Shown here: one piece after another, positions 7,246 through 59,700 of the stretch | How the letters are laid out: every line of letters starts with the position of its first letter | Position numbering within the stretch: the stretch's first letter is position 1 | Virus record (IMG/VR): IMGVR_UViG_3300042898_002111 | Coordinates: 1-64,000 of that record | Strand: one strand, 5' to 3' | DNA: 64,000 bases | DNA from: a virus | Position numbers and translations under genes: made by a program | The notes under the pieces: generated by a model | The model's database searches: none | What the model saw: only the letters and a program-made list of their open reading frames with translations | Told to the model about the DNA's origin: nothing

Positions 7246-7262
7246 CTTTGGTCATATTCTTT

Positions 7263-7291: not shown

Positions 7292-7301
7292 TATTAAATA
7301 G

Positions 7302-7331: not shown

Positions 7332-7368
7332 AAAATAGAAAATAATTATTTACAGAGAGACACAAATA

Positions 7369-40542: not shown

Positions 40543-40564
40543 TAAGTTTGTACTAACTAAAAAT

Positions 40565-40594: not shown

Positions 40595-40619
40595 TCTAAC
40601 ATTATGAAGGAATGCCAGC

Positions 40620-40961: not shown

Positions 40962-42335
40962 CGAATTGTACCATTCTGCTAATCTAGGGAATGTTTGTGC
41001 TAAATTTCTGCTGCGCCGTATGTCGAACTCAGTAAAAAATGATTTAAAATCTTTTTCTAAATCATCCCTGTTAAATTCTACTGTGGCTTCATTAAATGTT
41101 GTATCCGGTCTCGATGAATTATTTTTATGCGGTATAGAGACGTCAGTTATATAGCCAATTACTCGAGTAATTTGATCTAGTTGGTATTGTGACATAGTGT
41201 CTGGCATTTTCAGTCGGCTGACCGTGGCAGCAATCTCATTACCCAATTCTACTCGTAACTGCGTGGGCAGGGTGATAATATTTTGAAAACTCGGGAATCG
41301 TAATATGTTTACTGTATGCACAAATTTATCGTGGGGCTGTCCGAGGTATTTCTCCGCAAACCATTCCAGGAATTCAGCATACCCATCTGCTTGCAATACG
41401 CCCATGGTGCAACATATCCCAACTTTACTAATACTCGGATGTGCTAAGACTTTATCGAGATTAGCAACCCATTGATCCCATTCTAATCCATCCCGGATAT
41501 ATTCATCCTTTGCGCCCACAGTCTCTGCACTAGTCCATACTTCAATTGGCTGAGTTATCTTACTGCACTTGTCAAGGAATTTTTGTAAAATCTCATCGCT
41601 GTACGCTAGATTTGTAGTTATGTGTATTTTACATTTACTTTTAGTCGGATTATCTGCTAGCCAATCTAATAACTTCCATGTGTATCCGCTCATCATTGGC
41701 TCACCACCAGTTATTCTGAGAATTTGTAGATTTTTATACAAACCCTGTTCCCACCACTTAAAAAATGCATCAGCATAAGGATTTTCTTCGCCAAACTTAA
41801 TCGTCGAGTTGTCATTGGTGGTTGTATAAGAGAGTGTAGTGTCAGTTAGTAGTGTGTATTTGCCATTTTTACGAATGTCAGATGCCCAAGTAGAACTTAT
41901 TGCTGGGCTGCAATAACTACACCCAAGTTGGCAAGTTCTATCAAACGCAATTTCTAAATAGTCAAGATCATAATCAGCAGTTGCATCTCCATCGAATGCC
42001 GCTTGTAATCTGTCAGATGAACTTAATTGACTACTCATTACTCGGTCCGATGTACTGTCAGGGACAGTGTCTTCCATTACCCAACAAAATTGACAGCCGA
42101 CAGGTTTTAATCCATCTTGCATCATCTTGCGTTCGGCTTTTTTACTGGAAGTATTATGCAATGCGGCTGGGTTTAATTTAATCTCTTCGGTGTCAATTGC
42201 ATGCCACGGATTGTGGTGACAACTAGAGGTTGTGCCAGCGAAGAAATACATAGAAGCATTATACCATTTGGCGCCACAGAAACTAGGGCTTTTGCTATCA
42301 AGCTCTTTTATTTTCCATTGTTTCAATGATGTCAT
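40956..42335 (-). CDS. Radical SAM protein 4 of the array (CGAKWYN type)
   Basis: 459 residues from ATG 42335, overlapping the upstream stop (ATGA). [16 protein letters not shown] (Cys20), [10 protein letters not shown] (Cys39), ALHNT and [10 protein letters not shown] (Cys81/Cys84) form the front. CQLGCSYC gives cluster cysteines 135, 139 and 142, and [11 protein letters not shown] is the GGE motif. Closely related to the gene upstream; both end in EWYNSL. A 22-nt identical stretch at the two 3' ends (40957-40978 and 42333-42354) points to tandem duplication. Confidence 0.87.
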
Positions 42336-43681
42336 AACGAATTGTACCATTCTGTTAATTCTGGGAACGTCTTGGTAAAGTCTTTACCTCGGCGCTGATC
42401 GTATTGTGTATAAAATTGCTTGAAGTCTTGTTGTAATACTGCTTGTTCTGCAGATCCCATGTGTGGAGTTTTAACTACATCTAAATAATCAATTAAACGC
42501 TGTACTTGATTAATTTCCATCTGATGTAAGAATTCATTGTTGCCATTGGCATCTAGCCAGGATTGAATGCGATGGCGGAATGTAGTTCTTAATTCGTCGG
42601 GTAATACCAGGGGACTTTGGAAGCTGGGAAATCTTAAAATATTTAGCGTAAATGTGGGGTAGTCCGAACCATATTCCTGTTTCCATTGTAGCAATATGTC
42701 CAGGAATATGTGCAACTTACTCAGGCACAGTGCATTAATGGTGCACATCATGTGGAATCCCTCAATGTTGCCATTGGCCAGAACTTTGTCCACATTGTTG
42801 GCCCAGTCTTCCCAGATCATGCCATCACGTATATATTCTGCCTGTAGTCCAGTGGCCTCATTGCTAGTATACAAGTGAAAATGTTTGATGCGGTGTGAGG
42901 CATCAACCATGCGGTCAATAAGATCGTCTTTGGCTCCCAGATTACTATTCATGGCAAAACGCATGTCAGTATCGTGTGTCTGAAACCAGTCCAACAATTT
43001 CCAGGTATCGCCCGACATCAGTGGCTCGCCACCAGTCAGTCGCAACTCTTTTAGTGATCTATGAAGATCTGATTCCCACCATTTGAAGAATGCTTCAACA
43101 TACGGATTGGTTTCTCCAAACCGATAAAGTTGGCTACTGTCATGAGGATGAGTAAAGTGATTGCGACCATCAGATACCAGACCGGTGTAGGCTCCATTCC
43201 GGTTAATATCGTTAACCCAGGTACTGCTAAAAGCAGGATTGCAATAACTACAAGCGAAATTACATGTTCGGTCAAAAGCGATTTCAAGGGTCTGTAAGTC
43301 AACATCTTTATCTGATTCCAGATTGTAGGCATAATCTAAATCCTTATCGTCATATATGACCGTTTTGTATACACGGTCGCTGATATTATCTCGACCAATG
43401 TCTTCTATCTTCCAACAATATTCGCAACCCGCTGGACGTTCACCACGTTGCATCTGATCACGTTCAGATTTCTTTTTGGCTGTATTATGCAGAGCTTTGG
43501 GATTGGCCAATACATCAGCCACTTCCACTTTATGTGGTAACGGGTGGTGACAACTGGTGGTCATTCCACTGCCCAGCCAGATGGTGGCGTTATACCATTT
43601 GGCACCACAAAACGATTCTGACTTAATGTCAATTACGCGGCGCTTATAATCTAAATCGGTTTCTTTATCAAGTCTCGGCAT
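42332..43681 (-). CDS. Radical SAM protein 3 of the array (CGAKWYN type)
   Basis: 449 residues. [16 protein letters not shown] (Cys25), SCHHPLPHKV (Cys44), ALHNTAKKKSER and GCEYCWKIEDIG (Cys86/Cys89) with a following SDR, then CNFACSYC with cluster cysteines 140, 144 and 147 and RLTGGEPLMSG. It aligns along its length with the next gene and ends in the same EWYNSL. Starts 31 nt inside the upstream gene. Substrate unknown. Confidence 0.87.
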   Translation of the reverse strand: MPRLDKETDLDYKRRVIDIKSESFCGAKWYNATIWLGSGMTTSCHHPLPHKVEVADVLANPKALHNTAKKKSERDQMQRGERPAGCEYCWKIEDIGRDNISDRVYKTVIYDDKDLDYAYNLESDKDVDLQTLEIAFDRTCNFACSYCNPAFSSTWVNDINRNGAYTGLVSDGRNHFTHPHDSSQLYRFGETNPYVEAFFKWWESDLHRSLKELRLTGGEPLMSGDTWKLLDWFQTHDTDMRFAMNSNLGAKDDLIDRMVDASHRIKHFHLYTSNEATGLQAEYIRDGMIWEDWANNVDKVLANGNIEGFHMMCTINALCLSKLHIFLDILLQWKQEYGSDYPTFTLNILRFPSFQSPLVLPDELRTTFRHRIQSWLDANGNNEFLHQMEINQVQRLIDYLDVVKTPHMGSAEQAVLQQDFKQFYTQYDQRRGKDFTKTFPELTEWYNSL

Positions 43682-44817
43682 TGTTCCAACTCTGGTATGT
43701 AATCTTGCAGTTTTATATTTCTTGATTTATCCAATGTGTCATTATACTGGAAAAATTCCGATAATGCAACCAGATTAACTTTATTATTTTGTATTTCTGT
43801 AGTGAAAAAATCTAATTTAGAGGCAAATGACGCATCTGATACATATCTACGTGATTGTTTACATTTGGCTAGATCCAACAAAGCCAATTCCTTATTAGGG
43901 AAGGTGGTGAATTGTAAATACTGCTTTCCGTATACTTGATTTAATAATACAGTATTGTTGGGGAATTCATTATCAAAAAATTCAATCAATTTACTCAATT
44001 GTGATATGTTCCAAATACTTACAGTGACATTGAATGCCATTGTTGGGGTAATAGCAGAAATACCCCGTAAGTTTGATACCAGTGACTCCCAATCAGTTGG
44101 CCAACGTATATATCTATTAACCTGATCATAACCGTCAATACTACATATAATTTCCAAATTGGTAAATTGTGCCAATAATTCTCGGTATTCTTTGTTTAAA
44201 TTGGTCGCATTAGTATTCATACGAATCTTAATGTCGGTTCGTCTAGCTGCGATAGCCCTTTTAAGAAATAATCTGAATCCTTGCATTAAACTGGGCTCTC
44301 CCCCAGCTACATACACCATCTTAACAGTATTTAAATCAACAATGTCATTGAGTCCTTGTGCTTCTTTTTTGGATAGGTCATTGAAGAACCACCCAATTTC
44401 TTTATATTCTTTTTCCAATTGGCTGCTAAACTGGGGGCTGCACATACGACAACTTAAATTGCATAAATTGTCGTTTCTAATATCATAATATACTAGATCA
44501 GTGATTACATTTTCCACATGATCTAAATTAAGTTTATGCATCCATTCCGCCGTGTCACGAATTCTAGAGCTGTCAGATCTAGCATCCTCGTACTCATAGC
44601 ATTTGGTACAATGTTTGATCCGTTCTCCGGATAACATTTTTCGGCGAACTTCCTGCATTTCTGGGTCGTTTACAAAGTCAAAGTCTTTGGTATATTTTTT
44701 TACTGTCTGACCATCAGCCAGACAGCAGAGTTTGATGTCGTTTTTTTCGTTCACGTGTAAATGAACAAAGGGCAAAATACAGAACGATTTGTTTTCTTTA
44801 AGATCTATTTTGTGCAT
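43651..44817 (-). CDS. Radical SAM protein 2 of the array (CxxPF type)
   Basis: 388 residues. CILPFVHLHVNEKND (Cys13), LCCLADG (Cys31-32) and HCTKCYEYED (Cys70/Cys73) precede CNLSCRMC, cluster cysteines 119, 123 and 126; VYVAGGEPSLMQ is the GGE motif. It belongs to the CxxPW/F subfamily yet sits between two CGAKWYN-type genes, so the two subfamilies are interleaved. Overlaps the upstream gene by 20 nt. Substrate unknown. Confidence 0.87.
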   Translation of the reverse strand: MHKIDLKENKSFCILPFVHLHVNEKNDIKLCCLADGQTVKKYTKDFDFVNDPEMQEVRRKMLSGERIKHCTKCYEYEDARSDSSRIRDTAEWMHKLNLDHVENVITDLVYYDIRNDNLCNLSCRMCSPQFSSQLEKEYKEIGWFFNDLSKKEAQGLNDIVDLNTVKMVYVAGGEPSLMQGFRLFLKRAIAARRTDIKIRMNTNATNLNKEYRELLAQFTNLEIICSIDGYDQVNRYIRWPTDWESLVSNLRGISAITPTMAFNVTVSIWNISQLSKLIEFFDNEFPNNTVLLNQVYGKQYLQFTTFPNKELALLDLAKCKQSRRYVSDASFASKLDFFTTEIQNNKVNLVALSEFFQYNDTLDKSRNIKLQDYIPELEQCRDLIKKPI

Positions 44818-46186
44818 GGTATCGGCATTCCTTCCAGAATTCGTTCATTTCTGGAAAAGTCTCTTCAAAGTTAGTTTTACGACGTTTGTCGTGTTCGTGA
44901 AAAAATTTATAAAAATCTGCTCGTTGTAGTTTAACATAATCCGGATCCAGATTGCAACCTTCCTTCATCCAATCCACATCACGACGCATACGCTGTACCT
45001 CGTAATCCTTAAAGCCTTGGAATGGCTCTTCGGCCGTTTCTAGATTTTCCTCCATCCAATCAGCTACTTGGGCTAACTTATCGGCATATACTGGTGGCAG
45101 TATCTGTAAACTTTGCCAGGTGGGGGTTCGCAACAATGGTGTATCAAACCATACACGTTGATAAGTTGTACTATACTGTCTCCGCAAACTCAATATCCAG
45201 CCCAACTGTTGCTTCAAGCCAGTGACACTAAGATTGTTCATGGTAATAATGAAGGTCAGACTATTGCGATAAGGTATATGTTCTAGGAACATATTAGAGT
45301 AGCTGGCCATACGACTAAAATTCAATCCATGACGTATGTATTCTGCTTGGGCGGGATTACCAGAATCCAGGCTGACAAATTGCATGAAATGTTCAATTTG
45401 TGTGTTGCATAACTGTTTGACATAGTCCAGATATTTGTTGAATATTGCTGGCTCCACACTAAAGTTGCTGGTGACATTCAGATGAAGGTCGGACTTGGGA
45501 AATGCTAAAACATAATCAAATACTTTATATGTGTTCCGGTCCAACAATGGCTCACCACCGGTCATGCGGAAATGTTTCAGACGGGTATAAAGCGTGGGCC
45601 ACCAGGCCCAGAATGCATCAACATATGGATTATCCTCTCTAGCAGGAATTGGTCTACGACTGCCAGTAAAATGGCTAGGATCATTATGAATAGTACTAGT
45701 AGGATAACCACCCCAACGGTCAACTTCTTGTTGCCACGAGCTGCTGAACTGTGGACTGCAATAACTACATTTGAGATTACAAGCGTGATTAAAATTAACT
45801 TCAACATAACTAGGTATAGCATCTTCTTCTCCAGTGCTATTCATTATTTCAGTAAATTCATCGGCCGCCCATTTCTCACCCGATCGATAATGTCTATCAC
45901 TCAATTGTCCGTGTGATTCTATATTCCAACAATAACTACACTCAGCAGGCTTCTCCTGACGTAGCATTATTTTGCGTTGTTCTTTCTTGTGCGGTGTATT
46001 GTGTAATGCACTGGGGTTGTCAACCAACAAACTGGCATCAATGGGATGCAATGGTGGATGATAACAACTATTATTCAGCCCAGTGGGCAAATGTAGACTA
46101 ACCTGTTTCCACTTGGCCAGACACATGGCATTACCCAGATTATCTTTCATCCATTCAGCTGATGCCATGAAGTCGCTTTTACTCAC
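44798..46186 (-). CDS. Radical SAM protein 1 of the array (CxAKW type)
   Basis: 462 residues. MCLAKWKQVSLHLPTG (Cys22), NSCYHPPLHPI (Cys41), ALHNTPHKKEQRK and ECSYCWNIES (Cys83/Cys86) with SDR, then CNLKCSYC with cluster cysteines 136, 140 and 143 and RMTGGEPLLDR. It is the first radical SAM gene of the minus-strand block and overlaps the glycosyltransferase-like gene upstream by 8 nt. Substrate unknown. Confidence 0.87.
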   Translation of the reverse strand: MSKSDFMASAEWMKDNLGNAMCLAKWKQVSLHLPTGLNNSCYHPPLHPIDASLLVDNPSALHNTPHKKEQRKIMLRQEKPAECSYCWNIESHGQLSDRHYRSGEKWAADEFTEIMNSTGEEDAIPSYVEVNFNHACNLKCSYCSPQFSSSWQQEVDRWGGYPTSTIHNDPSHFTGSRRPIPAREDNPYVDAFWAWWPTLYTRLKHFRMTGGEPLLDRNTYKVFDYVLAFPKSDLHLNVTSNFSVEPAIFNKYLDYVKQLCNTQIEHFMQFVSLDSGNPAQAEYIRHGLNFSRMASYSNMFLEHIPYRNSLTFIITMNNLSVTGLKQQLGWILSLRRQYSTTYQRVWFDTPLLRTPTWQSLQILPPVYADKLAQVADWMEENLETAEEPFQGFKDYEVQRMRRDVDWMKEGCNLDPDYVKLQRADFYKFFHEHDKRRKTNFEETFPEMNEFWKECRYHAQNRS

Positions 46187-47072
46187 GGGTCATTGGTCCT
46201 ATGTTTCTATGTTGTGCTTTATAATGATGTTTAAAGAACTTGCTTTCAGTCGTGTTGTAAGTGACTATGGGCAATCTGAGACGCTGCCGCAAGGTTTCAC
46301 CCAGTGAATCCATGGCAGTCTGGTCGTGTGTACTAAACGTAGCCCACAAATCAGCTAGTACATCAAAACTTTGCACCTGTTTATGATCCCAGTCACGTAG
46401 CATGGTATAATATGTTCCCAGACGAGCACCGTACATGGCCCACCACCCATTTTCAACATCTGCGCCCACACTCTGCCAGATGCATAGATTGTCATAGTTG
46501 CGACTAACTATACGACTTTCAAATTCAGACAGTGCAGTTTTTACACCCCGATCCAGGCACATTTTGACACCCTCACGGAATCCTGCTCGCCAGGCCTGGA
46601 ACGGGGTAGAATTGGGGTATGTAGTACTATAACAATCATTCATGGCCCAATAATTGGGATAAAAACAAAATTCAACATCATTGGACGCTGATCCATCACT
46701 AGCCTCGTGAGTTTTCATATTATATACAAAGTCCTTAGTCCAACAACTCATACCACCATTGCCGTACATCAACCCATTAATGTGATTTCTTGCACGCCAA
46801 CGAAATACACAATCACGATTGGCGTCAGTTAGTGTCAATTGTAGGTTAAAAAATTCAGGATCAGGCAAATTATCACCATCAATGAGAATAAATCGGTCAG
46901 TCTCACTTGCATCTGCTGCTGCTTTATGTGCTGCATCTGAGCCTTTGACTCCATCTACCCTCTTGGCCCAGGGCACCATATTTTGAATCTTAACCCAAAA
47001 CTCTTCTTTTTTAGGTTCATCGTAAGTCAAATATATTGTGTCAAGATCAGCTACGTCAATTATTTGTGTCAT
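46179..47072 (-). CDS. GT-A glycosyltransferase-like protein with DGD
   Basis: 297 residues. An N-terminal Rossmann-like strand LDTIYLTYDEP, then RVDGVKGSDAAHKAA, then FILIDGDNLPDP near residue 95, where DGD is the candidate D-x-D metal site. FRWRARNHINGLMYGNGGM and FQAWRAGFREGVKM complete a family common in T4-like aquatic phages. The C-terminal part of the 1,210-residue protein (27249) matches this order but lacks the DGD. Likely a sugar transferase; donor and acceptor unknown. Confidence 0.7.
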   Translation of the reverse strand: MTQIIDVADLDTIYLTYDEPKKEEFWVKIQNMVPWAKRVDGVKGSDAAHKAAADASETDRFILIDGDNLPDPEFFNLQLTLTDANRDCVFRWRARNHINGLMYGNGGMSCWTKDFVYNMKTHEASDGSASNDVEFCFYPNYWAMNDCYSTTYPNSTPFQAWRAGFREGVKMCLDRGVKTALSEFESRIVSRNYDNLCIWQSVGADVENGWWAMYGARLGTYYTMLRDWDHKQVQSFDVLADLWATFSTHDQTAMDSLGETLRQRLRLPIVTYNTTESKFFKHHYKAQHRNIGPMTRE

Positions 47073-47427
47073 AATATTCTATATCCGTATATACTTCTGT
47101 TTCTGCCAATGGCACAACCGCATGTCCTTTTACCACCGCTTGGCCTTGTGTGGACTTTTTTAATCTAAATGTTTCATTAATACTTGGATTTAACAAGGTC
47201 AACTTATTATCATTAACACGAAGTAGACTGGTATTATGTCGATGAAATTCATCTGGATGTGATAAGACGATATAATCACCATTGGGAAAATCTCGTTCCC
47301 AAAGTCCAATAATTGTGCCGTCCTCATGGTAATATAATCTGAATTCCTTAACCGCTAATTTGGCAGCACGCTCAGCGTCTGCTTCAGCAATCAATCGCCA
47401 GGCTAGTTCGTAATCGTCTGAATCCAT
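47056..47427 (-). CDS. Hypothetical protein
   Basis: 123 residues. A helical N-terminus (ELAWRLIAEADAERAAKLAVKE) is followed by strands (FRLYYHEDGTIIGLWERDFPNG, YIVLSHPDEFHRHNTS). The DGTIIGLWE and YIVLSxxDEF phrasing is found in phage hypotheticals. Overlaps the gene on each side (25 and 17 nt). Function unknown. Confidence 0.65.
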   Translation of the reverse strand: MDSDDYELAWRLIAEADAERAAKLAVKEFRLYYHEDGTIIGLWERDFPNGDYIVLSHPDEFHRHNTSLLRVNDNKLTLLNPSINETFRLKKSTQGQAVVKGHAVVPLAETEVYTDIEYYDTNN

Positions 47428-48230
47428 TGTTTATCGTAATAGTGTAATGGGTGGTATTGATTTACATTATTAATGCGAATCATGTTGCCATCCCGTTCAA
47501 CATTAAACACATCTGAAAATGACTGTTCCTCAGCATATCCATTAATGCCCGGCTTCATATGCACAAAATTTATAAAATCCAAACTGGGGGCTGTACACAA
47601 TTCAGGACCAACTATCTGTGCTGTTAATGCATACAACAAATCAGTACTGGGAGTTTCTTCATCACAGCCCATGATTGATGATCTGATTGCAGGCCAGTTT
47701 TCAAATATGGTTCTAGCAGTGGAGAAAAACTGCTGAGCTTCCTGACTAAATCTAAAATACATCAACCCATTATATACATCAGGCAAATGATTGTTGTCAA
47801 AAATCTGACGATACTTTCTTACTGAACTCAATTCTTGCTGATAATTTCTGCAACCAGTACTCAAACATACATTTCGCAATTTAAATGCAGTCCACCAGTG
47901 ATCTATACTGCGAGTAAACAACAAGTCACTTTCTAACTTAATAGTTTCCTTAAATGGCGTTAACCAAAAGACCTGCCATTCATTAGCTAACCGCCAAGTA
48001 GAATCAGGGCTATTAAAATCGTGTGTAATATCGATGATGTAATCAAATACTGATAGGTGTTGGTCATTTATTTGAGCTCTAGTTGCGGCGTCTACTGCCA
48101 CTGCAAATTGATTATGCTTCTGTGTTGCTTTAATATTTAGTGCTTGTAGATAAGCCAGATGTAGATAGTCTACATCAGCAGTATTTTGTGCGAATGTAAA
48201 ATAACCCCGCTGTGCTTTATGCCAACTCAC
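47403..48230 (-). CDS. GT8-like glycosyltransferase homologue
   Basis: 275 residues. The start FTFAQNTADVDYLHLAYLQA is typical of GT8/GT-A proteins that begin with a nucleotide-binding strand. WLTPFKETIKLESDLLFTRS near 88-107 sits where D-x-D is expected but reads ESD, so activity is uncertain. LPDVYNGLMYFRFS matches the acceptor-side NGG/NG segment. A close relative follows at 48217. Likely glycan-related, possibly a weakened enzyme. Confidence 0.62.
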   Translation of the reverse strand: MSWHKAQRGYFTFAQNTADVDYLHLAYLQALNIKATQKHNQFAVAVDAATRAQINDQHLSVFDYIIDITHDFNSPDSTWRLANEWQVFWLTPFKETIKLESDLLFTRSIDHWWTAFKLRNVCLSTGCRNYQQELSSVRKYRQIFDNNHLPDVYNGLMYFRFSQEAQQFFSTARTIFENWPAIRSSIMGCDEETPSTDLLYALTAQIVGPELCTAPSLDFINFVHMKPGINGYAEEQSFSDVFNVERDGNMIRINNVNQYHPLHYYDKQWIQTITN

Positions 48231-49017
48231 TGTCTATAAACTCCCTAAACTGTTCACTTTGTAGATATGCTTTGCTCATGACATGCATGTTAGTACGTGG
48301 GATTACATAAGCTCTGTCGACATCACGTACAATGAAGTTAGTTCCTTGTGATGTAATATTAGTAACTGCATTATCTATGTGCAACATTGGTCCCAGTAAT
48401 GCTGGTGCCCCCAGTGGATTATAACCATTAAGTGCCATGTCGGCAATAGCAAATGCATGATCATTTCTAAAGTTGCGTTGTTCAATATTATACAATGCGC
48501 GATAGAAACCGTAGTTTTCTTGTATACGCCTAATTAAATCAAAATAAATTCTGGACCGTGATGTCTTTTTAAATGCGAATGCAGTGGCCCAGACGTAGGG
48601 TAAACTGTTTGATCCCATGTATTTGGGATACTGTTGAGTTAATCCCGTGGCATCACGTATCACTTGCCAGTCCCAGAGTTCTAGATCAAAAACACAAGAA
48701 ACCGAGTCGTTGAATATTAAAAAGTCAGCATCAATTACCAGAGTTTCATCATATGGACTTAGTTCATAGGCCTGATAACGGCCTGCATTACGCCACTGCA
48801 CAAATCGACCCGTGTCAGTATCATAACGCTGATTATCGTAATCCTGGGCATTGTCTGTAATTAGAGTATATGGCAGGCCCAGTGTTTTACTGGCTAGTTT
48901 TAACGTGCGTTCAGCGATACTAACATAATCTGTGGTGTCAGTATTGTAGGCAAATGCAAGGATCCCTCTAGATTTTTCGGACACGTTTAAGCTCTGCGTG
49001 TTGTTGTTGCCAATCAT
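48217..49017 (-). CDS. GT8-like glycosyltransferase
   Basis: 266 residues from ATG 49017 (50-nt overlap with the upstream gene); a GTG at 48984 would give a 17-nt overlap. GILAFAYNTDTTDYVSIAERTL opens the domain; ELSPYDETLVIDADFLIFND near 92-111 carries D-A-D, the candidate metal site. YVWATAFAFKKTSRS and RNDHAFAIAD follow the family order. It pairs with the 47403 protein, which has a changed motif at the same place. Confidence 0.72.
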   Translation of the reverse strand: MIGNNNTQSLNVSEKSRGILAFAYNTDTTDYVSIAERTLKLASKTLGLPYTLITDNAQDYDNQRYDTDTGRFVQWRNAGRYQAYELSPYDETLVIDADFLIFNDSVSCVFDLELWDWQVIRDATGLTQQYPKYMGSNSLPYVWATAFAFKKTSRSRIYFDLIRRIQENYGFYRALYNIEQRNFRNDHAFAIADMALNGYNPLGAPALLGPMLHIDNAVTNITSQGTNFIVRDVDRAYVIPRTNMHVMSKAYLQSEQFREFIDSELA

Positions 49018-49315
49018 TCATTACTCGTTGATAATGTTCACAGGCTGTGCGATAAAATTCTGCACAACTTTCAATATGGATGGGGTTTCCGTAGGTATCT
49101 TCCATGAACATACTGTCACCACCTCTCCAGGGCCACACCTCATCTGCACTGCGCCAAGCGTGTACGAATGCTATCAATTCTGGTGTGGCTTTAAACAAAC
49201 CTCCATTATGGGTAAAGTGGAGGTCTGTCTGAATCTTTTCTTTTAAAATCTTTCGATTAACCTGATAGTCAGTGGCTTGCTTTAATTGTTCAACAATTTC
49301 TGGTATGTCGCTCAT
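48968..49315 (-). CDS. Hypothetical protein, first gene of the minus operon
   Basis: 115 residues: helices (IPEIVEQLKQATDYQVNRKILK), then LFKATPELIAFVHAWRS and FMEDTYGNPIHIESC. The LFKxTPELIAF and LEDTYGNPI phrasing occurs in T4-like phage hypotheticals. The Shine-Dalgarno is GGAAAT, 6 nt before the ATG; a promoter and a terminator lie just upstream. Function unknown. Confidence 0.68.
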   Translation of the reverse strand: MSDIPEIVEQLKQATDYQVNRKILKEKIQTDLHFTHNGGLFKATPELIAFVHAWRSADEVWPWRGGDSMFMEDTYGNPIHIESCAEFYRTACEHYQRVMNDWQQQHAELKRVRKI

Positions 49316-49330
49316 GGATTTCCTGCGTAG

Positions 49331-49375
49331 AAAAAAGGCATAGTAGATTTTACACTACCATGCCCCGATTGTCAA
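49331..49375 (-). promoter_or_regulatory. Terminator and promoter overlapping in one hairpin
   Basis: Minus strand: stem GGCATGGTAG/CTACTATGCC (49355-49364 with 49337-49346, one G-U) with loop 49347-49354, then TTTTTT (49331-49336), an intrinsic terminator for the tail genes. The same bases hold TTGACA (49370-49375), a 17-nt spacer and TAAAAT (49347-49352), with the -10 box in the hairpin loop. A new transcript would begin inside the 3' arm. Confidence 0.72.
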
Positions 49376-49385
49376 CTATATTAGA

Positions 49386-50336
49386 TTATAGCGAAGAAAT
49401 AGTTACTGCGCCCCAAGTATTGCTTATGTTTGTAACTTCTGGGAAGCTAACATCAATCGAACGAATAACGTTGATGCCCAAACTATCATCAAAACTTCCC
49501 CCAGCATTGGCACCAGATGTTGAGCTTAGGTTAATCCAGAAATCTACGTTTAGACCATTGCCGTTATTGGATCCTTGAGTACCGTTGCAACTTACTGTAA
49601 TTGTTCCAGTGTCGGTGGTATAAGAAGTAGTGGTACTGGTAATGCTGACTATTGTTACGTTGCTGTTGTATGTGCTGGTCCAATAACCCTTGGTTGTATC
49701 GTTTGTGCCCAGTGTTCCACCAGCACCAGTTCTACCACCGTTGGTATTGGCGGCAAACAGTGCCACGCCGCCCAGATATGTTAAGATATTAATAGCTGCG
49801 TTGGTACGGGCTGTGGTACTGGCGTTTTGTGTACCGCTAGTATTTAATTTTAGTCTGCCGCCAGCGTTAAAAAAGTATCTAGCCTGATCAGCTGATGCAA
49901 ATGTAGCACGTACACCAAAAGATCTAGCCAACGTAGATGACGTTGTGGTACTAGTCCAGGCTGTGGATTGGTTAGATCCGGCAACTACAGCTGAGTTGGA
50001 TGCAAAATTCAAACGGTTGGTATAGCTAGTGGTGATACTTGTTGAAAGAGTGCTTAAATGATTTATTTTTCCACCAGCAACAGTGGCACTAATACCCGAT
50101 CCCGAACCTGCTTGGTGTGTTAATATGCTGTTCAATGTGTTGATAAGTGATGCCCATTGAGTGGCCGTTACTATTCCAGCAGCAGACACTTGACTGACCG
50201 CAGTCTGTCCGTAGCCAGCACTACCGCTACCAACTGACCAAACTGTATTAATTCGGTTGGTAGTACTACTGGGACTGGTGCCTACAAATGTGTTGTAGTC
50301 TGCGGCATCGATCTTTCCGCCTTGTGAGTATGACAT
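49386..50336 (-). CDS. Virion structural protein
   Basis: 316 residues rich in Ser, Thr, Gly, Asn and Ala. It starts MSYSQGGKIDAADYNTFVG, then VGSGSAGYGQTAVSQVSAAG and TQWASLINTLNSIL, a front found in virion proteins of T4-like cyanophages. The C-terminal half is beta-rich with repeated TSTT and short-side-chain strands, ending in VRSIDVSFPEVTNISNTWG. Last gene of the tail block before the terminator. Probably a fibre or baseplate-associated component; exact place unknown. Confidence 0.7.
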   Translation of the reverse strand: MSYSQGGKIDAADYNTFVGTSPSSTTNRINTVWSVGSGSAGYGQTAVSQVSAAGIVTATQWASLINTLNSILTHQAGSGSGISATVAGGKINHLSTLSTSITTSYTNRLNFASNSAVVAGSNQSTAWTSTTTSSTLARSFGVRATFASADQARYFFNAGGRLKLNTSGTQNASTTARTNAAINILTYLGGVALFAANTNGGRTGAGGTLGTNDTTKGYWTSTYNSNVTIVSITSTTTSYTTDTGTITVSCNGTQGSNNGNGLNVDFWINLSSTSGANAGGSFDDSLGINVIRSIDVSFPEVTNISNTWGAVTISSL

Positions 50337-50350
50337 TTACTGTTTATCCT

Positions 50351-51805
50351 TTACGAATTTAGCTTTACAACGGCTTCAATAATACCTTCACCATCGTCTA
50401 ATTTATTTTCCAGTGCGCGGCCAATCACATTCCAAGCAGTAATTTCGCTGCGGCTGCCGGCTCGAGCAATGCCATTGCCTGCACTAACCAAACGGTCTCC
50501 CTTGCGAATACGACCAGTCACTTTAACTGGGACACGACCTTGGACTGCAATTGGGGGATGTGTTTGATTTGTTCCAGCACCAGAATTCATTAAATAAGCT
50601 GCTCTAGTACTTATGACTCCAAAGACATTCTCACTTAAATCTTCTACCGCAGCAGTAATTTCAGCTGGGCCACCTAATTCTACCACAGTACCAGGCCCAT
50701 ATTCTGTATCAGCCTCAAATCTTTCGGCCAAGTCGGCATACTGTGCATGTACGGCAGTACCGTAAATATTATTCCACCAGGCCGATGCTGAACCCAAATC
50801 ATAAGTCAAGTTACCACTCGGCACAATGTTTGATGCAACTGATGTGAATGTAGCAGAACCAGTAACTCCTAAAGTTCCACCAACTGAAACGTTCCCCAAT
50901 AAGTTGACATTTCTTACATATAAATTATTCCAGTAGGCACTGGTACTTCCCAAATTTTGTGTACCGTTACTATTTGGAATTAAATTCCCAGAGATCGACG
51001 CAATACTTACTGGGTATCCGGCAGGAAACGAAACATTTCCAGTAAAAGCTGCGTCGCCAGTTGCGCCAGATATGAAAAATACAGTTCTAGGTGTGCCGCT
51101 GACATTGGCTGTTATATTAAATCCATATCCCGTAGTTAAACTAGTTACCTGTACGTTACCACTACTAACACCAAAAATCATATTTGGTGTTGAAATCGCA
51201 GTTGGTTCAGCAGTACTGGAAAAGTTAATACCAGGATTAATGCGTGTAATGCCGCTAGCAGGATAAGTAATTGCTGGAACGAATGACGTGTTGTCTGAAC
51301 TTATTATTGCTGTTAATTTATTATTAACTATTAAATTACCAACAGTGTGTGATGCTGATGATGTATCTGTAACGGCATTGCCTTGAAAATCAGTTGTTGC
51401 AGTACCTGGGGGGACTTGTGGTCCCACAACTATCCAAGAACTCCCTGAATATCCACGCAATTGGCTTAACGAGCTGTCCCACCATAAGTCTCCTGCGATC
51501 GGCGCCACAGTTGGTGCAGAAGTGCCAGAAATAGCATGACTAACTGGTTTCCAACCGGTGCCTTGCTGTACCATCAGTCTCTTATTGCCACTATCCCACC
51601 ACAATTGGCCCTCAATACCTGAAGAGGGTGCAGCGGATCTACTAAAATTTTCCAATATCTTAACGAAATTTTCGTTAATTGATTCACCATAACCAGTGGT
51701 GTTTTTACCAATCAAAGTGATGCTTGTTGCAGAAGTATTCGTGGTCCCGTCTGCCAATGAAGGTACTAGTTCACTACCATCGGTTTTGTTAATTGTATAC
51801 GCCAT
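50351..51805 (-). CDS. Tail-fibre-like protein (mosaic)
   Basis: 484 residues. Residues 1-90 (MAYTINKTDGSELVPSLADG, GYGESINENFVKILENF, GQLWWDSGNKRLM) match the N-terminus of the 52984 protein. The C-terminal ~155 residues (YDLGSASAWWNNIYG, YADLAERFEADTEYGPGTVV, GVISTRAAYLMN, GRIRKGDRLVSAGNG) match that of the 55445 protein. The C-terminal part resembles a chaperone or cleavage domain of phage fibres. A late promoter lies 28 nt before the ATG. Confidence 0.82.
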   Translation of the reverse strand: MAYTINKTDGSELVPSLADGTTNTSATSITLIGKNTTGYGESINENFVKILENFSRSAAPSSGIEGQLWWDSGNKRLMVQQGTGWKPVSHAISGTSAPTVAPIAGDLWWDSSLSQLRGYSGSSWIVVGPQVPPGTATTDFQGNAVTDTSSASHTVGNLIVNNKLTAIISSDNTSFVPAITYPASGITRINPGINFSSTAEPTAISTPNMIFGVSSGNVQVTSLTTGYGFNITANVSGTPRTVFFISGATGDAAFTGNVSFPAGYPVSIASISGNLIPNSNGTQNLGSTSAYWNNLYVRNVNLLGNVSVGGTLGVTGSATFTSVASNIVPSGNLTYDLGSASAWWNNIYGTAVHAQYADLAERFEADTEYGPGTVVELGGPAEITAAVEDLSENVFGVISTRAAYLMNSGAGTNQTHPPIAVQGRVPVKVTGRIRKGDRLVSAGNGIARAGSRSEITAWNVIGRALENKLDDGEGIIEAVVKLNS

Positions 51806-51832
51806 AACGCTCTTTGTCCCAGTTAGTACTCT

Positions 51833-51840
51833 TATTTATT
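51833..51840 (-). promoter_or_regulatory. Late promoter element AATAAATA
   Basis: On the minus strand AATAAATA ends 28 nt before the first base of the ATG at 51805. The same distance is seen before the genes starting at 55382 and 56737. Confidence 0.65.
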
Positions 51841-51875
51841 GCTTCTTGGCACTTTTTCGCCCGTGATCTAGTAAA

Positions 51876-52187
51876 CTAATATATACTAACAAGATTATAT
51901 TCTCCAGGATTAGAAAATACGTGTTTCACTCGTCCTTCGCTCACTGTTACTACTCCGCCATCAAATAATATTCCATTCTCATTGGTGTAACTGAGACTAA
52001 TATAGCCGTGGCCTGCGCTGCTACCAGTCGCAGTAGCTGATCCCAAGGGGATAGTATCACTACCGGATCCACCATTGGTGCCATTATAGTCATCAATACC
52101 GTGAGTGCCTGCGGCACCGTTGGGCCCACCTCCACCTCCACCACCCCCACCATCACTGGGGTGATTTTGTCCGGGAATTCCTGCCAT
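51876..52187 (-). CDS. Gly-rich tail protein, short
   Basis: 103 residues. It starts MAGIPGQNHPSDGGGGGGGG, then GTNGGSGSDTIP, then a compact end GHGYISLSYTNENGILFDGG and EYNLVSIY. Poly-Gly runs plus a GYISLSY strand recall Gly-rich phage adhesins. GGAG precedes its ATG on the minus strand. It may be a partner of the larger Gly-rich protein encoded upstream (52234-52968). Confidence 0.62.
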   Translation of the reverse strand: MAGIPGQNHPSDGGGGGGGGGPNGAAGTHGIDDYNGTNGGSGSDTIPLGSATATGSSAGHGYISLSYTNENGILFDGGVVTVSEGRVKHVFSNPGEYNLVSIY

Positions 52188-52233
52188 ATTATCTCCTGTT
52201 ATCTTAAATTATTAGGACGTACCGCAATTTCCA

Positions 52234-52968
52234 TCACTCGGGCCCACCGGGCCCATCAGAGCTGCACGAAGCGTCACCTGGACTATCACAATCGCCTGGC
52301 CCAGGTGCTGCGTCACCCTCAATGCCCCCACCATTGTCATTGTAATATTCCACTGGTATTTCGATAACTGGGTCGATAATGGGTGGTGGAGTGGGTGGGT
52401 ATACGGGCAGAACAGGTGGAATCACTGGTGGAATCACTGGTGGTGGTGGTGGTTCAACAAAACCACGCCCACCACCACCGCCACCGCCACCGCCGCCAGC
52501 CACTATTATATTAGTACCATTAATTATTAGTGCTGATGCTCCACCACCACCCCCACCTGATCCTGACCATCCACTGGGACCGGAGCTACCTCCGCTGCCT
52601 CCACCAAATTCGACCGTATATCCCCCACCAGTACCGCCAGCTCGGGCAGTTCCAGAGGCGCCGTCATTGCCTTGTTGACCAACAATTAATTTTATAACGG
52701 CACTTGGGTCGAGCGCGAGTACTCCTTGAACTCGATTACCAAGAACCCCATCAAATCCGGCAGTAACATCATCGCCACCTCGACCCCCACCAGCACCCAT
52801 GACTACTACAGTGGTTTCCACTGCTGGGGGCCAGAATTGACGCCAAACCCCATCCACTCTGGTCCACCCAGCGCGAACTTTGGTATATTGGCCCTGGGCA
52901 TTTTTAACAAAAAACTGCCGCAATGCTGCGTTGTACCCAGATTTTCTAACAAAAATACCACGTGGCAT
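52234..52968 (-). CDS. Gly-rich adhesin-like tail protein
   Basis: 244 residues. The N-terminal ~60 (MPRGIFVRKSGYNAALRQFF, VDGVWRQFWPP) are a short attachment-like domain. Then comes TTVVVMGAGGGRGGDD and several Gly-rich loops, including runs of nine to ten Gly, typical of polyglycine-II sandwiches in phage adhesins. A Pro-rich arm (PPPPPVIPPVIPPVL) and an acidic, Cys-containing end close the chain. It is likely part of receptor binding; the poly-Gly and poly-Pro order is unusual. Confidence 0.68.
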   Translation of the reverse strand: MPRGIFVRKSGYNAALRQFFVKNAQGQYTKVRAGWTRVDGVWRQFWPPAVETTVVVMGAGGGRGGDDVTAGFDGVLGNRVQGVLALDPSAVIKLIVGQQGNDGASGTARAGGTGGGYTVEFGGGSGGSSGPSGWSGSGGGGGGASALIINGTNIIVAGGGGGGGGGGRGFVEPPPPPVIPPVIPPVLPVYPPTPPPIIDPVIEIPVEYYNDNGGGIEGDAAPGPGDCDSPGDASCSSDGPGGPE

Positions 52969-52983
52969 TTAAATATTCATCCT

Positions 52984-54720
52984 TTATTGAATTAAAAACC
53001 AAAAGTCACCGTCATTTTGTGCTATATCATTAGTGGAGAACAAAACTCCGCTGACGTCTGTGGGAGGGGTAATAGATATATTGTAATTAAATCTTTTTCC
53101 ATCAACTGACCTGGTCACAAACTCAGTACTGGCGATTTGCGTGGTATTGGCACCAATCGTGGCCGTCGGTGCTGTGGGAACTCCGGAAAATGCTGGACTT
53201 ATTCTAGGGGCCAATGGTGCTTTTGCTGCTGCCACAAATGCAGTGGTGGCTATTTGCGTGGTGTTGGCGCCAAATGCTGCTGTTGGTGCAGCAGGTATTC
53301 CAGTAAAAGTCGGGCTTGCTATATTTGCCTTGAGTAGTCCGGCATTATATATTTCAAGATCTACATAAGTTTTATTAGAAACATCATTTCCAGAAACTGG
53401 AACATTAGCCACTTGCAATGTTCCAGTCAATCCATTTAACTGTACTACCCTAACATTAATGCCACTGGATTTTACATAAAAATTAATATTTGAACCTTCA
53501 ACGGTATTAATTAAATCAGTCTCAGTAGCAGTACTATTAATTGCAATATTCCCGGCAGATAATGCTACATTACCAGCAAAAGTCTCATCAATGTCTTTTC
53601 TAGCATACCCATTTGCATTAATATTTCCCAATTTATTAGAATCAGTTGCTGGATTGGTGGCGGCCGCTACAAAAGCAGTTGTTGCTAATTGAGTAGTACT
53701 GGTACCAAGTGCTGCTGTTGGTGCAGCAGGTATTCCAGTAAAAGTTGGACTTGCCTTGGGTGCCAATGGACCAGTGGCATCAGTTACTGTATTGTCTACA
53801 TAATTTTTATTGGTAATATCAGATGAATTGTATGGGGCATTTGATGTTTGAAATGTGCCAGATACTCCGTTAACAGAAGCCACTTTAGTCTTGATACCTG
53901 CCAAATTAGCATAAAAATTAACATTGGATCCACTGACCGTATTAACAATGTCAACATCAGCTGAGGATTGATTGATGCTTAAATTACCAGAAATAACATT
54001 TAAATTTCCAGCAAAAGTTTCATTAATATCTTTTCTGGCGTACTGAGCTGCTGTAATATCACCCAAAGTTAATGAATTGATTGCAGTCCCCACAAATCGG
54101 GCACCAATTGCTGTATTTGCATTAATACCCGGAGACACATTGGCAAATCCAGGGATAGCAACGTTGGGCACAAACGCTGCATCGTAGCTGGCTATAGAAC
54201 TAACATTACCACTGGTATACATTTTAACAACAATGTGTTTTCCACCCGCAGTGTCATATACAGTTTCAGGAAATGCACCGCTTTTACCATCTGACTTTGT
54301 GTAGGGTGGACCAATTAACAGCCACGCAGATCCAGTGTAGATAAACAATTGATCATTTGTGGTATCCCACCAGTGCGATCCAGTAACTACATTTGTTCCG
54401 GTAACTATAGGCGTGTTGTCACTGACTAAAATTGGAGATACTGGAGTCCAACCTGCTCCTGTGTAGACTTTTAAAAAACCATTGGCGGTATCATACCATA
54501 GTTCCCCACGAATTGGTGCCGAAGGGGGTGTACTATTGGCAAAATTTTCTAGCATTTTGACAAAGTTTTCATTTTGGAACTCCCCATAGCTGGGATAGTT
54601 TTTTCCAAAAAGATTTATATCTAACGTGTTTTCTCCGGGATTTATGGCTGGCCCATCAGCAGTGCCGTCCAATAATGTTAGTATTAATTGCCCGTTAGTT
54701 TTATTAATTAAGTAAGCCAT
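52984..54720 (-). CDS. Tail-fibre protein with internal repeats
   Basis: 578 residues. The N-terminus (MAYLINKTNGQLILTLLDG, YGEFQNENFVKMLENF, GELWYDTANGFLKVY) is shared with the 50351 protein. The middle holds two YARKDI(N/D)ETFAGN units and three copies of a PTFTGIPAAPTAA...TTQIATTAFVAAA unit, characteristic of many phage fibres. The end (DVSGVLFSTNDIAQNDGDFWF) is unrecognised. Probably forms a beta-rich trimeric shaft. Confidence 0.85.
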   Translation of the reverse strand: MAYLINKTNGQLILTLLDGTADGPAINPGENTLDINLFGKNYPSYGEFQNENFVKMLENFANSTPPSAPIRGELWYDTANGFLKVYTGAGWTPVSPILVSDNTPIVTGTNVVTGSHWWDTTNDQLFIYTGSAWLLIGPPYTKSDGKSGAFPETVYDTAGGKHIVVKMYTSGNVSSIASYDAAFVPNVAIPGFANVSPGINANTAIGARFVGTAINSLTLGDITAAQYARKDINETFAGNLNVISGNLSINQSSADVDIVNTVSGSNVNFYANLAGIKTKVASVNGVSGTFQTSNAPYNSSDITNKNYVDNTVTDATGPLAPKASPTFTGIPAAPTAALGTSTTQLATTAFVAAATNPATDSNKLGNINANGYARKDIDETFAGNVALSAGNIAINSTATETDLINTVEGSNINFYVKSSGINVRVVQLNGLTGTLQVANVPVSGNDVSNKTYVDLEIYNAGLLKANIASPTFTGIPAAPTAAFGANTTQIATTAFVAAAKAPLAPRISPAFSGVPTAPTATIGANTTQIASTEFVTRSVDGKRFNYNISITPPTDVSGVLFSTNDIAQNDGDFWFLIQ

Positions 54721-54725
54721 TTACT

Positions 54726-55382
54726 TTATCCTATGCTACTTAGACTAGTAAGTGTTTGAATTCTCACTGTATAGTCAATTTGTATTAATCGGTTTAAACT
54801 TTTTTGCACTGGGTGAAAAACCACATGTGTCAACAGTTTACCAGTTGTGGATAAGCCATAGGTTCCGTCAGTGCTACGAGCCTTCAATCCCAACTCATCA
54901 AAAGTAAACTCATCATCGAGATTGGTGCTATTATCAAAAACTGCCTGGCCACTTGGCTCACCATAATCTAACAAACATGTTATTAATATGTCTGAGTAGA
55001 CTTGTCCGGGAACATGGCGTATTTCAATTTTATTTCTAGTTGGGTCTGGATTTATGGGGCTAGTATTGTCTACTATTTTACTATAAGTTGGGTTATATAA
55101 ATCTGCATTCTGCGTATTTGTGTTACTGGGAAGGTAATTAATTACACCAGTGGGATCTACGCTGGTTCCCCCATTACCAAAATGCATTTCAAAAACATAG
55201 CTTTGTCCTTTATTTGCTAGACTATAAGCAATAGCTTCGGATATGTTTTCATAATGGATAGCATTTCGTTTGTCATGATAAACCGTTCCAGATTCTGGAT
55301 CATAAATTTTAATATGTCCTGTTACATAAATTCCACCAGTTTCATCCGGCTTCTTTTGATTTAAGTTCTTACTTGTGTTCAT
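54726..55382 (-). CDS. Conserved phage virion protein
   Basis: 218 residues. IYVTGHIKIYDPESGTVYHD, KRNAIHYENISEAIAYSLA, FEMHFGNGGTSVDPTGV, YLPSNTN and DLYNPTYSKIVDN are segments found together in a tail-region protein of T4-like cyanophages. Predicted beta-rich with no signal peptide. It has its own late promoter 28 nt upstream. The next gene follows after 5 nt. Role likely tail/baseplate; exact function unknown. Confidence 0.75.
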   Translation of the reverse strand: MNTSKNLNQKKPDETGGIYVTGHIKIYDPESGTVYHDKRNAIHYENISEAIAYSLANKGQSYVFEMHFGNGGTSVDPTGVINYLPSNTNTQNADLYNPTYSKIVDNTSPINPDPTRNKIEIRHVPGQVYSDILITCLLDYGEPSGQAVFDNSTNLDDEFTFDELGLKARSTDGTYGLSTTGKLLTHVVFHPVQKSLNRLIQIDYTVRIQTLTSLSSIG

Positions 55383-55409
55383 AATATGATCTTTAAAATG
55401 TTATCTGTA

Positions 55410-55417
55410 TATTTATC
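55410..55417 (-). promoter_or_regulatory. Late promoter element GATAAATA
   Basis: On the minus strand GATAAATA lies 28 nt before the ATG of the 55382 gene, matching T4 late promoters (TATAAATA) at seven of eight bases. Confidence 0.68.
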
Positions 55418-55444
55418 GTTAATATTTAATGGCATCGTAACCCC

Positions 55445-56737
55445 TCAAAACTTCATAATAACTACTTCAATTAGTTTAATTTGGGTCGATTCGTTGTCGT
55501 TAAGTGCATGTCCGATAACGCATCCAGGCACATATTTTGTTACATCCAAACGCCCAGCAACTCCTGTCGCAATATTCACCAGTCTATCACCTTTGGCCAC
55601 TGGTCCCTGTACTAGACAGGGCACTCGACCACTTAATGCAACTGGTAACCCGGCGCTAATGGCATTCATTAAGTATGCTGGCGACGTTGATATTACTCCA
55701 GCAACCATTGGAGTATGATCTTCTGAACTAGTTGTTATCTCATTCGACCCCCCAAAGCAAACTACTGTCCCCGGTGGGTATTCATGATCAGCAGTATATA
55801 TCTCTGCCAAGTCAGCATATTTTGCCTGTATACTAATGCCATAAACATTGTTGAACCAAGCACTTGTGCTGCCCAAATCAATAGTTAAGTTAGCATTGGG
55901 AACTATTGCCCCACTTACAGTTAATCCTGTCAATGTACCAACACTTGTGATATTATTTTGAGCCGATGTACTTAATGTACCAGTTAGAGTAGCACCTGAG
56001 TTGCCAATGGTTCCAGCATTTACTGTTGTTGCTGTGACTGTAGTAAAACGTCCAGTATTATGTGTGGTGGCCCCAACTGCAACGTTGTTAATGTTGCCAC
56101 CAGTAATTACTGCGTTACCACTACTAAAATTAGTAGCCACTGCTGTAGTGGCCGCTAGATTGGTAATAGTGCCCAACGCAGTGATTCCAGTTGCTGATGT
56201 AATGTTATTTTGTGCGCCAGAACTCAATGTACCAGTTAATACAGCACCTGAATTACCGATTGTGCCCGCGTTTAATGTGGTTGCTACAAGAGTTGTAACT
56301 CGAGCAGATTGTGGACTAACATTACCAATTATTGTATTATTAATCGAGGAAAACGATGCTTCATTTATAGAAGTTAGGTTTCCACCAATGTTTAAATTGG
56401 CCCCAGTTAACATTACATTTCCACCAATGTTAGCTGTACCTGAAACTACTAAATTTACCAAGGTTCCAGTGGATGTGATGTTGGGCTGTGTTACTGTACT
56501 TAAAACTCCAGTTAAAATAGTCCCAACATTGCCTATAACACTGGCCTGGACCAGATTAGCTGTTAAAGTTTCGGCGTTTATTGCGCCAGACACAATGACG
56601 TTCCCCAAAGATGACATGTAGCTCTTTAACGACAATGCTGTTAATTTTCTTGTAAAAGCGCCATCCTGCACTGAAAAAACAGTGGTGTCTTGTGGTGTAG
56701 GTAATAGTGTTAGGTTACCAATCGTTACGGTAGTCAT
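55445..56737 (-). CDS. Tail-fibre-like protein with repeats and chaperone-like end
   Basis: 430 residues. Residues about 40-270 carry at least three copies of an NAGTIGNSGA...LTGTLS...QNNITS unit, a beta-rich fibre repeat. The C-terminal ~150 residues (IDLGSTSAWFNNVYG, YADLAEIYTADHEYPPGTVV, GVISTSPAYLMN, GPVAKGDRLVNIATG) match the C-terminus of the 50351 protein. The front (MTTVTIGNLTLLPTPQDTTV) is a short attachment part. Late promoter 28 nt upstream. Confidence 0.82.
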   Translation of the reverse strand: MTTVTIGNLTLLPTPQDTTVFSVQDGAFTRKLTALSLKSYMSSLGNVIVSGAINAETLTANLVQASVIGNVGTILTGVLSTVTQPNITSTGTLVNLVVSGTANIGGNVMLTGANLNIGGNLTSINEASFSSINNTIIGNVSPQSARVTTLVATTLNAGTIGNSGAVLTGTLSSGAQNNITSATGITALGTITNLAATTAVATNFSSGNAVITGGNINNVAVGATTHNTGRFTTVTATTVNAGTIGNSGATLTGTLSTSAQNNITSVGTLTGLTVSGAIVPNANLTIDLGSTSAWFNNVYGISIQAKYADLAEIYTADHEYPPGTVVCFGGSNEITTSSEDHTPMVAGVISTSPAYLMNAISAGLPVALSGRVPCLVQGPVAKGDRLVNIATGVAGRLDVTKYVPGCVIGHALNDNESTQIKLIEVVIMKF

Positions 56738-56764
56738 ATGTGTCCTTGTATTGCTGCCATGCTG

Positions 56765-56772
56765 TATTTATT
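56765..56772 (-). promoter_or_regulatory. Late promoter element AATAAATA
   Basis: On the minus strand AATAAATA sits 28 nt before the ATG of the 56737 gene, in the 45-nt gap after the large tail gene. Confidence 0.66.
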
Positions 56773-56782
56773 AGTTATCATA

Positions 56783-59700
56783 TCATAGTCCTTTAACGAA
56801 CATTGCTTGTGCCGCTGTACTTCCCTCAATCCCAGTTCCATCAAATGGGGCACTCAGAACAGTGCTGGTTACCAAAGTATTTCCAGTATGATCATTCAAT
56901 TCGTTGCCCAGGTCGTCAATTATAGTTTTGGATATCAAATCCACGTTTGCATTAAAGTTTAACCAGGTCCCTTTATGCGAGCTATCTACGCCCAGGCCAG
57001 TACTTGGAATTTTCTGATTATACCCCAGGTCATCTACGATTGATCCAACTATATGAATTAATGGTGCTCCAGTTTTGTCAGCACTGCGCCGTATTTGTGC
57101 CAGAGTATTGTTGCTTACTTGGGTAACATTTGCTGTTATATTAGCAAAATTAGCAGCATAAACATTTCCTGATGTTAGGTACGTGTTTCCACTGTAAGTA
57201 ATTAATCTATTTGATGCTACTAAAACGTTAGCTACCCAGGCAGTTTTTGCTTCGGTGGCATAATTTCTCCAATAAACAATTTTTTCACCGTTAATGTAAA
57301 TCGCACCGGGAATATTTAATGCCACATTTGGGGATGCAAGCACACTGGCATCCCCCACTGATATATTGGAGTCAGTGATATTCAAATTTGATGTTAACAC
57401 TGTGGTATTGCTAGCTGAAATACGATAATAATCAGGCCAGTAACTGGTTGAAATATTACTAGTAATTTCAGACCTGGCATTGGTCACCATACGATAACCA
57501 ACAATTTGTGTATTACTTAATATTTTGGTATATACACTAATTGCTACGTGGTCAAATAACTGTCCGGGAATTAATTCCTCAGGAGAATGGCTGCTAAATG
57601 TATCGTAATATGCGCCACCGTCGATGTTAATATCTTCAGCCCGTAATCCCAAATCCGAATCTTGATATGCGCTTTGTATAGTACTATCAAGGTTAATTGG
57701 ATTATGAAAATCATAATACTTTAGTGAAACATTACTGCCATGTGCTATGCTAAATGTTGCACCAGCAATCTCCGACAATTGCAGGCGATCATTGGTGATA
57801 TTAACTATCTTGAATGTTAAATTAGCTGATACTGGCAAATCTAAGTTGGATACTGTCAAATATTCACCAGTGGCGTATTCTGTTGTGGTAAAGTCAAAAT
57901 AGTCGTTAACGTTACTGATGGCAGTAACATTGGCTGTTAGATTGGCACCGTCTCGGTATACGTAGATATTAGCTGCGTTAGAGGAAAATACACCAACTAC
58001 TCGACTAAGTGTCACTACGTTTCCTGTAGATATGCTGTAAACATTGCCGTAAGCACCAGTACTTAATTGCGTAATTGTATTACCAACCCAGACATTGGCA
58101 TTAGTACTCAGTGTTAAGCGTGTAATTATATTACTACTGATCAATGATAAATTACTATGATGATAGCTAATAATATTACTAGTAATATTACTACTAAAAG
58201 CATTAAATTTTACGCCTTGAACTCGAACTCCAGGATATTCCAGTCCTGATACCAAATTATCAAGATCTCGGCCTGGCATTCCAGCAAGTGGACTATAGTA
58301 TGCTGCAATGCGATCATTGGCATTATCAAAATCGCTAGCATTAATTTTAGTAAATTGGCTATAATCAAATACGTTTGTTACCGTGGATGGACGGACCCCA
58401 ACAGCTACAGAATTTATCAATAGATTTCCACCGCGTGGAAGAAAATCACTAGAGATATTGGCTACAGTAAGTACGTTACCAGAGACTACTGAGGTAACCA
58501 CTTGTGCGTTGGCAGTATTATTATCCTGGGTTATGTAATCTCCAGCTACCACAGTTATATTGCCGTTCAATTTCATAGTGGTTGAATTATACACGTTAGC
58601 AGTGGTACGATATGCTACGCCATCATATCTGACAGTTGTGTTAGCTGGTATAGTAATATTACTAGCCCAATCAATAACTTTGGTTCCATAATATGCCTGG
58701 GCAGTAAATGGAATTAAACTGTCTACACCATTTATAGAAATATTACCCAACAAATCGCCAGATTCCAATTGACTACCAATCCGGTCAAATTTAAGAACAC
58801 TGTCAAAAGTCCTAACTTTATTATAGCTACGATCCACAAATTGTGTGAAATTGTTGATCGAGGTAATTTTTGCACCCAAATTGCTTTCTAACGTATATAT
58901 AAAATTATTAAGTGATGTGTTGGATGTAAAAGTTCCAGTCACATCAGTTAATGTGATAACATTAGCATTATTTGAAGTAGTGTACACATATCCCTGTGCT
59001 GTACTAATGGGCTGTGATATTAAGTTACCCTCATATACTGTGACATTGGCACTTAATGTAAGTTGAGTAGTTGGTAGACTATCAACATAATATTCACCAA
59101 CCAGTCGAGCATATCCTAGTGCGCCTGAACCTGTGCCATTGATTGTTATTGTGGGCTGACTAGTATATCCAGACCCAGGGGCAACAACTTCAAATCTGGC
59201 AATATTGGAATAAGTTGGATTGATGTGTGCTATTACTCTAGCCCCAGAACCACCTCCGCCAACTACAGATATCAATGGTGTTTCATAATACCCACCAAAG
59301 CTCAATGTATAAAAATTAATTGCATCTACATTAACTTGTAGGTTAGAATCGTTATTAAAAATATATGCATTGTCAATTGTGGTGGTAGTTACATTGGCTG
59401 CTAGGTTTGCACCATCACGATAAATGTATGCATTTCCTACAGTAGAATTACTAAATTCACCAACAACATTACTTAATGTAACTGTGTTACCAGTGCTGGT
59501 AATAAAAACATTTCCGTATGCTCCAGTGCTCAATTGAACAATAGTATTACCAACATACACATTAGCATTACTGTTTAAGGTTAATGTTTCCAATATATTA
59601 GTAAAAGCACCAGTTACATTTTGTAATGTAATTATGGAATCCACACTGCTTACTTGCACTACACCATTGGCACCAGTCACTGGTTGTGTGATATAATCCC

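Follow-up and report, generated by a model that had tools for sequence, protein, structure and literature searches.

Organisation of the operon boundary

The window, that is, the whole 64-kb stretch of viral DNA analysed here, contains on its minus strand a boundary between two runs of genes, and the 45-bp element at 49331-49375 occupies it. Upstream lies a gene for a protein of 316 amino acids (49386..50336, minus strand), a conserved neighbour beside tail-fibre-like genes, from which RNA would enter the hairpin described below; in all three relatives with open reading frames listed, the upstream gene again encodes a homologue of this protein. Downstream is a gene of 115 codons (48968..49315, minus strand), the first behind the promoter, whose ATG at 49315 is preceded by a Shine-Dalgarno-like AGGA (49321..49324). 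The 115-residue product has many relatives in IMG/VR and had no match in Pfam or PHROG, and nucleotide and protein searches found no relatives of the junction genes among named phages. The run of tail genes is headed by a gene for a 218-residue protein, and 27 nt before it is a T4-late-like motif, GATAAATA (55410..55417, minus strand), a putative promoter and a possible source of the RNA that enters the hairpin from upstream. The window also encodes at least six radical-SAM-like proteins (5947-8250 on the plus strand, and 36779-40590 and 43651-46186 on the minus strand), four of which belong to the run of minus-strand genes that follows the promoter.

The first-pass annotation had described a promoter, a hairpin and six T on the minus strand, and all three can be read directly from the sequence. 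The -35 box TTGACA (49370..49375), which is kept in relatives, and the -10 box TAAAAT (49347..49352) are separated by 17 nt, and so conform to sigma70-type hexamers (TTGACA and TATAAT-like, 16-18 nt apart). The hexamers and their spacing were thus correctly recorded, but the promoter is not 'perfect' as had been claimed; the -35 box is, while the -10 box agrees at five of six positions, for a score of 11/12. Inside the promoter spacer is the 5' arm of the hairpin, GGCATGGTAG (49355..49364), followed by an 8-nt loop, TGTAAAAT (49347..49354), the 3' arm CTACTATGCC (49337..49346) and a U-tract, TTTTTT (49331..49336), where the tail-gene RNA is predicted to end. The stem has 10 bp with one G.U pair. 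The -10 box had been equated with the loop, and it does lie there, but as six of the eight loop bases rather than the whole. In RNA reading in from upstream the hairpin has a folding energy of about -16 kcal/mol with TTTTTT directly after it, the stable G+C-bearing stem and immediate U-tract expected of an intrinsic terminator.

Both components stand out from their surroundings. In a scan of positions 40000-59000 the promoter is one of only two scoring 11/12, and the hairpin is listed first among the terminator-like hairpins and has the most pairs (12). Scanning the whole window for promoter and hairpin jointly returned the 45-bp element and one other, weak match; in 100 dinucleotide-shuffled windows no match was as strong, and loose matches averaged 0.36 per window. 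Hairpin promoters of phage N4, which serve a virion polymerase, have a short stem and a three-base loop and lack a -35 box; with its 8-nt loop and consensus TTGACA the element is not a single-stranded promoter of this type.

Conservation of the promoter among relatives

Four scans of IMG/VR for relatives of the downstream gene produced 104 distinct junctions, all on metagenome contigs and many of them related to one another, so that the counts given here overstate the number of independent events. Scored against the sigma70 consensus, on the assumption that the host uses sigma70, 68 of the 104 have a promoter that scores 10/12 or more where dinucleotide shuffles lead us to expect 4.0, and 54 have one that scores 11/12 or more where 0.2 are expected. 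TTGACA and the -10 box are kept at a spacing of 17-18 nt across relatives with differing arms; an exact search with the arm sequence of this element found one further contig. The combination of nested layout and U-tract is present at 30 distinct focal junctions and at five places elsewhere in 1.6 Mb of partly redundant loci; the nested layout is a feature of this gene boundary and not genome-wide. The first 50 kb of T4 contain one weak nested match. The layout appears to have been kept, with its sequences changed, in about 40-50 distant relatives.

Position of the predicted start

In every junction the transcription start was placed by rule, about 7 nt past the -10 box. For the element this gives 49339..49341 (minus strand, 6-8 nt past the box), within the 3' arm, and RNA folded from these positions does not form the hairpin, in agreement with the earlier suggestion that RNA begun at the promoter would start in the 3' arm and be unable to fold. 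Fifty-five junctions combine all three of promoter, hairpin and U-tract. The hairpin encloses the predicted start in 42 of them and precedes it in the other 13; in none does the start come ahead of the hairpin. The inside cases comprise two layouts: that of the window, where the -10 box lies in the loop and transcription would begin in the 3' arm, and another (L045, L063, L071 and L122) with the -10 box just 5' of the 5' arm and the start within that arm. Across both, the median fold is -15.4 for the full hairpin of read-through RNA and 0.0 for RNA begun at the promoter itself. Mapped on the gene tree, which is based on few columns, the layout label changes 20 times, with at least 14 of these changes forced by starred branches.

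Several relatives carry other start signals at this junction. In 21 of them (including L018, L025, L033, L061, L087, L114-L120 and L146-L148) a sigma70-type -10 box is found exactly 6 nt before the ATG of the homologous gene, which predicts a leaderless mRNA. A T4-late-like GATAAnTA lies exactly 5 nt before that ATG in 16 of the motif's 17 occurrences ahead of this gene (L030, L041, L052, L054, L062, L066, L068, L073, L083, L122, L144, L207 and others), with the same prediction; elsewhere in related loci the motif is about 20-26 nt before open reading frames. L122 and L144 have a sigma70-type promoter overlapping a terminator and then a separate, late-type leaderless promoter, placing three signals in about 80 bp.

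Conservation of the hairpin as RNA or as DNA

Of the 85 junctions whose promoter scores 9/12 or better, 65 have a stem of seven or more Watson-Crick pairs with its centre at or close to the -10 box, against a mean of 16.6 and a maximum of 28 when the spacer and downstream bases are shuffled. In the relatives the pairing of the arms is kept and their sequence has changed, and it varies widely (GGCATAGTAG, GGTGTAG.., CTGGTTAGTG, ATATGGACAGG, AGCACAGTCT, AAGGTACAG, ATGGGTAGA, GATAGGTATATA and others). Since arm geometry also differs between families, we re-dealt the right arms among junctions instead of counting pairs in a single alignment; the pairing of each left arm with its own partner sums to 1016, while re-dealt arms average 600 and never exceed 697 in 5000 permutations, all of them below the observed value. 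Single-linkage clustering of the arms merged most families by chaining and was not used as a count.

The kind of mismatch that the stems accept distinguishes RNA from DNA. An RNA hairpin tolerates G.U alone, and on its own strand, whereas in a decaying DNA palindrome, with mutation assumed to be strand-symmetric, G.T and A.C should arise equally often. Energies of sense and antisense hairpins were set aside, the hairpins having been chosen by sense folding, and strand-symmetric scoring was used in their place. By this measure the distinct stems with a U-tract contain 23 G.U pairs, from about twelve lineages by inspection, and one A.C; the corresponding figures are 17 and 10 for stems that lack a U-tract, and 40 and 11 for all stems. 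For stems with a U-tract, the ratio of 23 to 1 thus indicates that it is RNA of the tail-gene strand that is under selection, and on these comparative grounds the case for a hairpin selected as RNA appears well supported. Of the initial proposal that RNA from the tail genes folds and stops here, folding gains support from this selection in relatives, while stopping is predicted from the form of the terminator.

Alternative interpretations

The inverted repeat could instead be a DNA operator, at which a dimeric phage or host repressor sits over the -10 box and the run of T is incidental. The centre of the repeat falls on the -10 box, which is a classic place for an operator, and about 20 relatives have an inverted repeat round the -10 box and no good U-tract, which a terminator leaves unexplained. 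We nevertheless regard an operator as improbable, since it predicts equal decay on both strands where a marked strand bias is found, and would have to accommodate the wide turnover of arm sequences, the U-tract that accompanies the repeat in about 40 relatives, and the absence of the repeat from junctions with a separate, ordinary terminator, where the promoter has no stem around its -10 box. Six relatives (L114, L115 and L117-L120) have a near-perfect or perfect inverted repeat, CATCTACACAGTA..TACTGTGTAGATG, upstream of the homologous gene; it covers the spacer, the -10 box and the start codon, has no U-tract and is not a terminator. The same strand bias, G.U 23 to A.C 1, tells against a cruciform that is extruded in supercoiled DNA, exposes the -10 box and aids promoter opening. 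Such a structure would suit the -10 box, which most relatives carry within or at the loop, but it explains neither the U-tract nor L063, L071 and L122, where the box is just outside the stem, and it seems to us very improbable indeed.

Two further explanations accept the terminator and differ over the promoter. The terminator alone might be real and the promoter match fortuitous, with the downstream genes read by terminator read-through; the -10 box is after all TAAAAT rather than TATAAT, and its start is placed by rule. A chance match would hardly be expected to keep its hexamers 17-18 nt apart while the arms between them change, or to recur at 11/12 in more than 50 junctions, and we consider this highly improbable. 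An attenuator, or some other regulator in the 5' leader of the downstream operon, would likewise place a promoter next to a terminator, but would require initiation upstream of the hairpin, and the predicted start precedes it in 0 of 55 junctions; a search of Rfam for a riboswitch or similar element gave no match, leaving this explanation scarcely credible.

A model for the element and its limits

Our essential contention, which we hold to be likely, is that the 45-bp element combines an intrinsic terminator with a sigma70-type promoter, both written in the same bases, at the boundary between the tail operon and the next operon. RNA from the tail genes would carry both arms, fold and stop at the six U. 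RNA from the promoter would start within the 3' arm, at about 49341-49339, and run on into the 115-codon gene, being unable to fold because it lacks the 5' arm. The actual RNA ends, the efficiency of termination and the promoter activity of the element are predicted from its sequence.

The first-pass annotation also held that one operon ends and the next begins 'without mutual interference', and this we cannot support, because the anatomy provides independence at the RNA level only. Polymerase arriving from the tail genes must cross the -35 and -10 boxes before terminating, so promoter occlusion is to be expected for as long as tail transcription runs, and holoenzyme bound at the promoter would be a roadblock to that polymerase. 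The two outputs may therefore be insulated as RNA while not being independent as DNA. Polymerase that has stopped at an intrinsic terminator can also remain on the DNA and initiate again close by (PMC6978380), and we tentatively raise, as a possible but doubtful extension, a one-way coupling in which late tail transcription silences the sigma70 promoter and the polymerase ending at 49331 stays on that promoter and restarts with sigma70, linking the two operons in time.

The tail operon upstream of the element is probably late. A match to T4 gp55 is encoded by 11 of 15 related contigs, and one related contig scanned with PHROGs has a late sigma factor match at 1e-77; the window's own contig, a 67.8-kb fragment, has no gp55 match. 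GATAAWTA motifs in related loci lie 5 or about 20-26 nt ahead of open reading frames, and these phages look T4-like in regulation. The upstream operon may thus be read late with a gp55-type factor and the downstream operon with host sigma70, though the timing is uncertain since late promoters occur in related contigs.

If the model is correct, the relatives supply a design rule with some 40 natural variants, namely that a promoter overlapping a terminator has its start inside or after the hairpin and never before it. This rule is directly testable, and the elements themselves amount to a ready-made set of compact terminator-promoter parts.

Comparison with known systems

The terminator of the frd operon of E. 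coli overlaps the promoter of the next operon, ampC, in one short region; this terminator is downstream of the ampC start and serves as its attenuator, which differs from the element in the window, where the hairpin contains the predicted start. A similar but weaker case is the central terminator between genes VIII and III of M13 with the putative gene III promoter, where TACAAT stands just before the hairpin and the predicted start is in the 5' arm. There, however, the -35 box is weak (4/6), the start is not annotated in the record used, and a four-pair remnant of the hairpin remains in RNA begun at the promoter.

The closest analogue is the H-A junction of phiX174 (J02482, 3927-3980, locus L218), comprising the terminator TH and the promoter pA. 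TTGACA is at 3927, TTTTTT follows a hairpin at 3956-3974, and the start annotated at 3962 falls within that hairpin; the fold is -12.8 for read-through RNA and -1.5 for RNA from pA, which lacks the 5' arm. One set of genes ends and the next begins there, and the element shares this logic in that its start is predicted inside the hairpin and its own RNA cannot form it. The phages are unrelated and the geometry differs, the -10 region of phiX174 being just before the 5' arm with the start near the apex, while in the window the -10 box fills most of the loop and transcription is predicted to begin in the 3' arm, a layout kept with many different arm sequences. A literature search for promoters inside terminators, with subscription papers mostly outside its scope, returned a remark on phiX174 only. 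An overlapping promoter-terminator has been described between its structural and replication genes (PMC9135205), and a model of the phage places pA upstream of TH and has TH cut short most transcription from pA (PMC11527146). The sequence does not favour such a cut-off, because the annotated pA start falls inside the hairpin that must form, and the modelling of pA and TH is thereby called into question. As phiX174 H-A has the same logic, the principle was already known; judged by its sequence and those of its relatives, the element in the window is a variant of this known arrangement with unusually strong comparative support.
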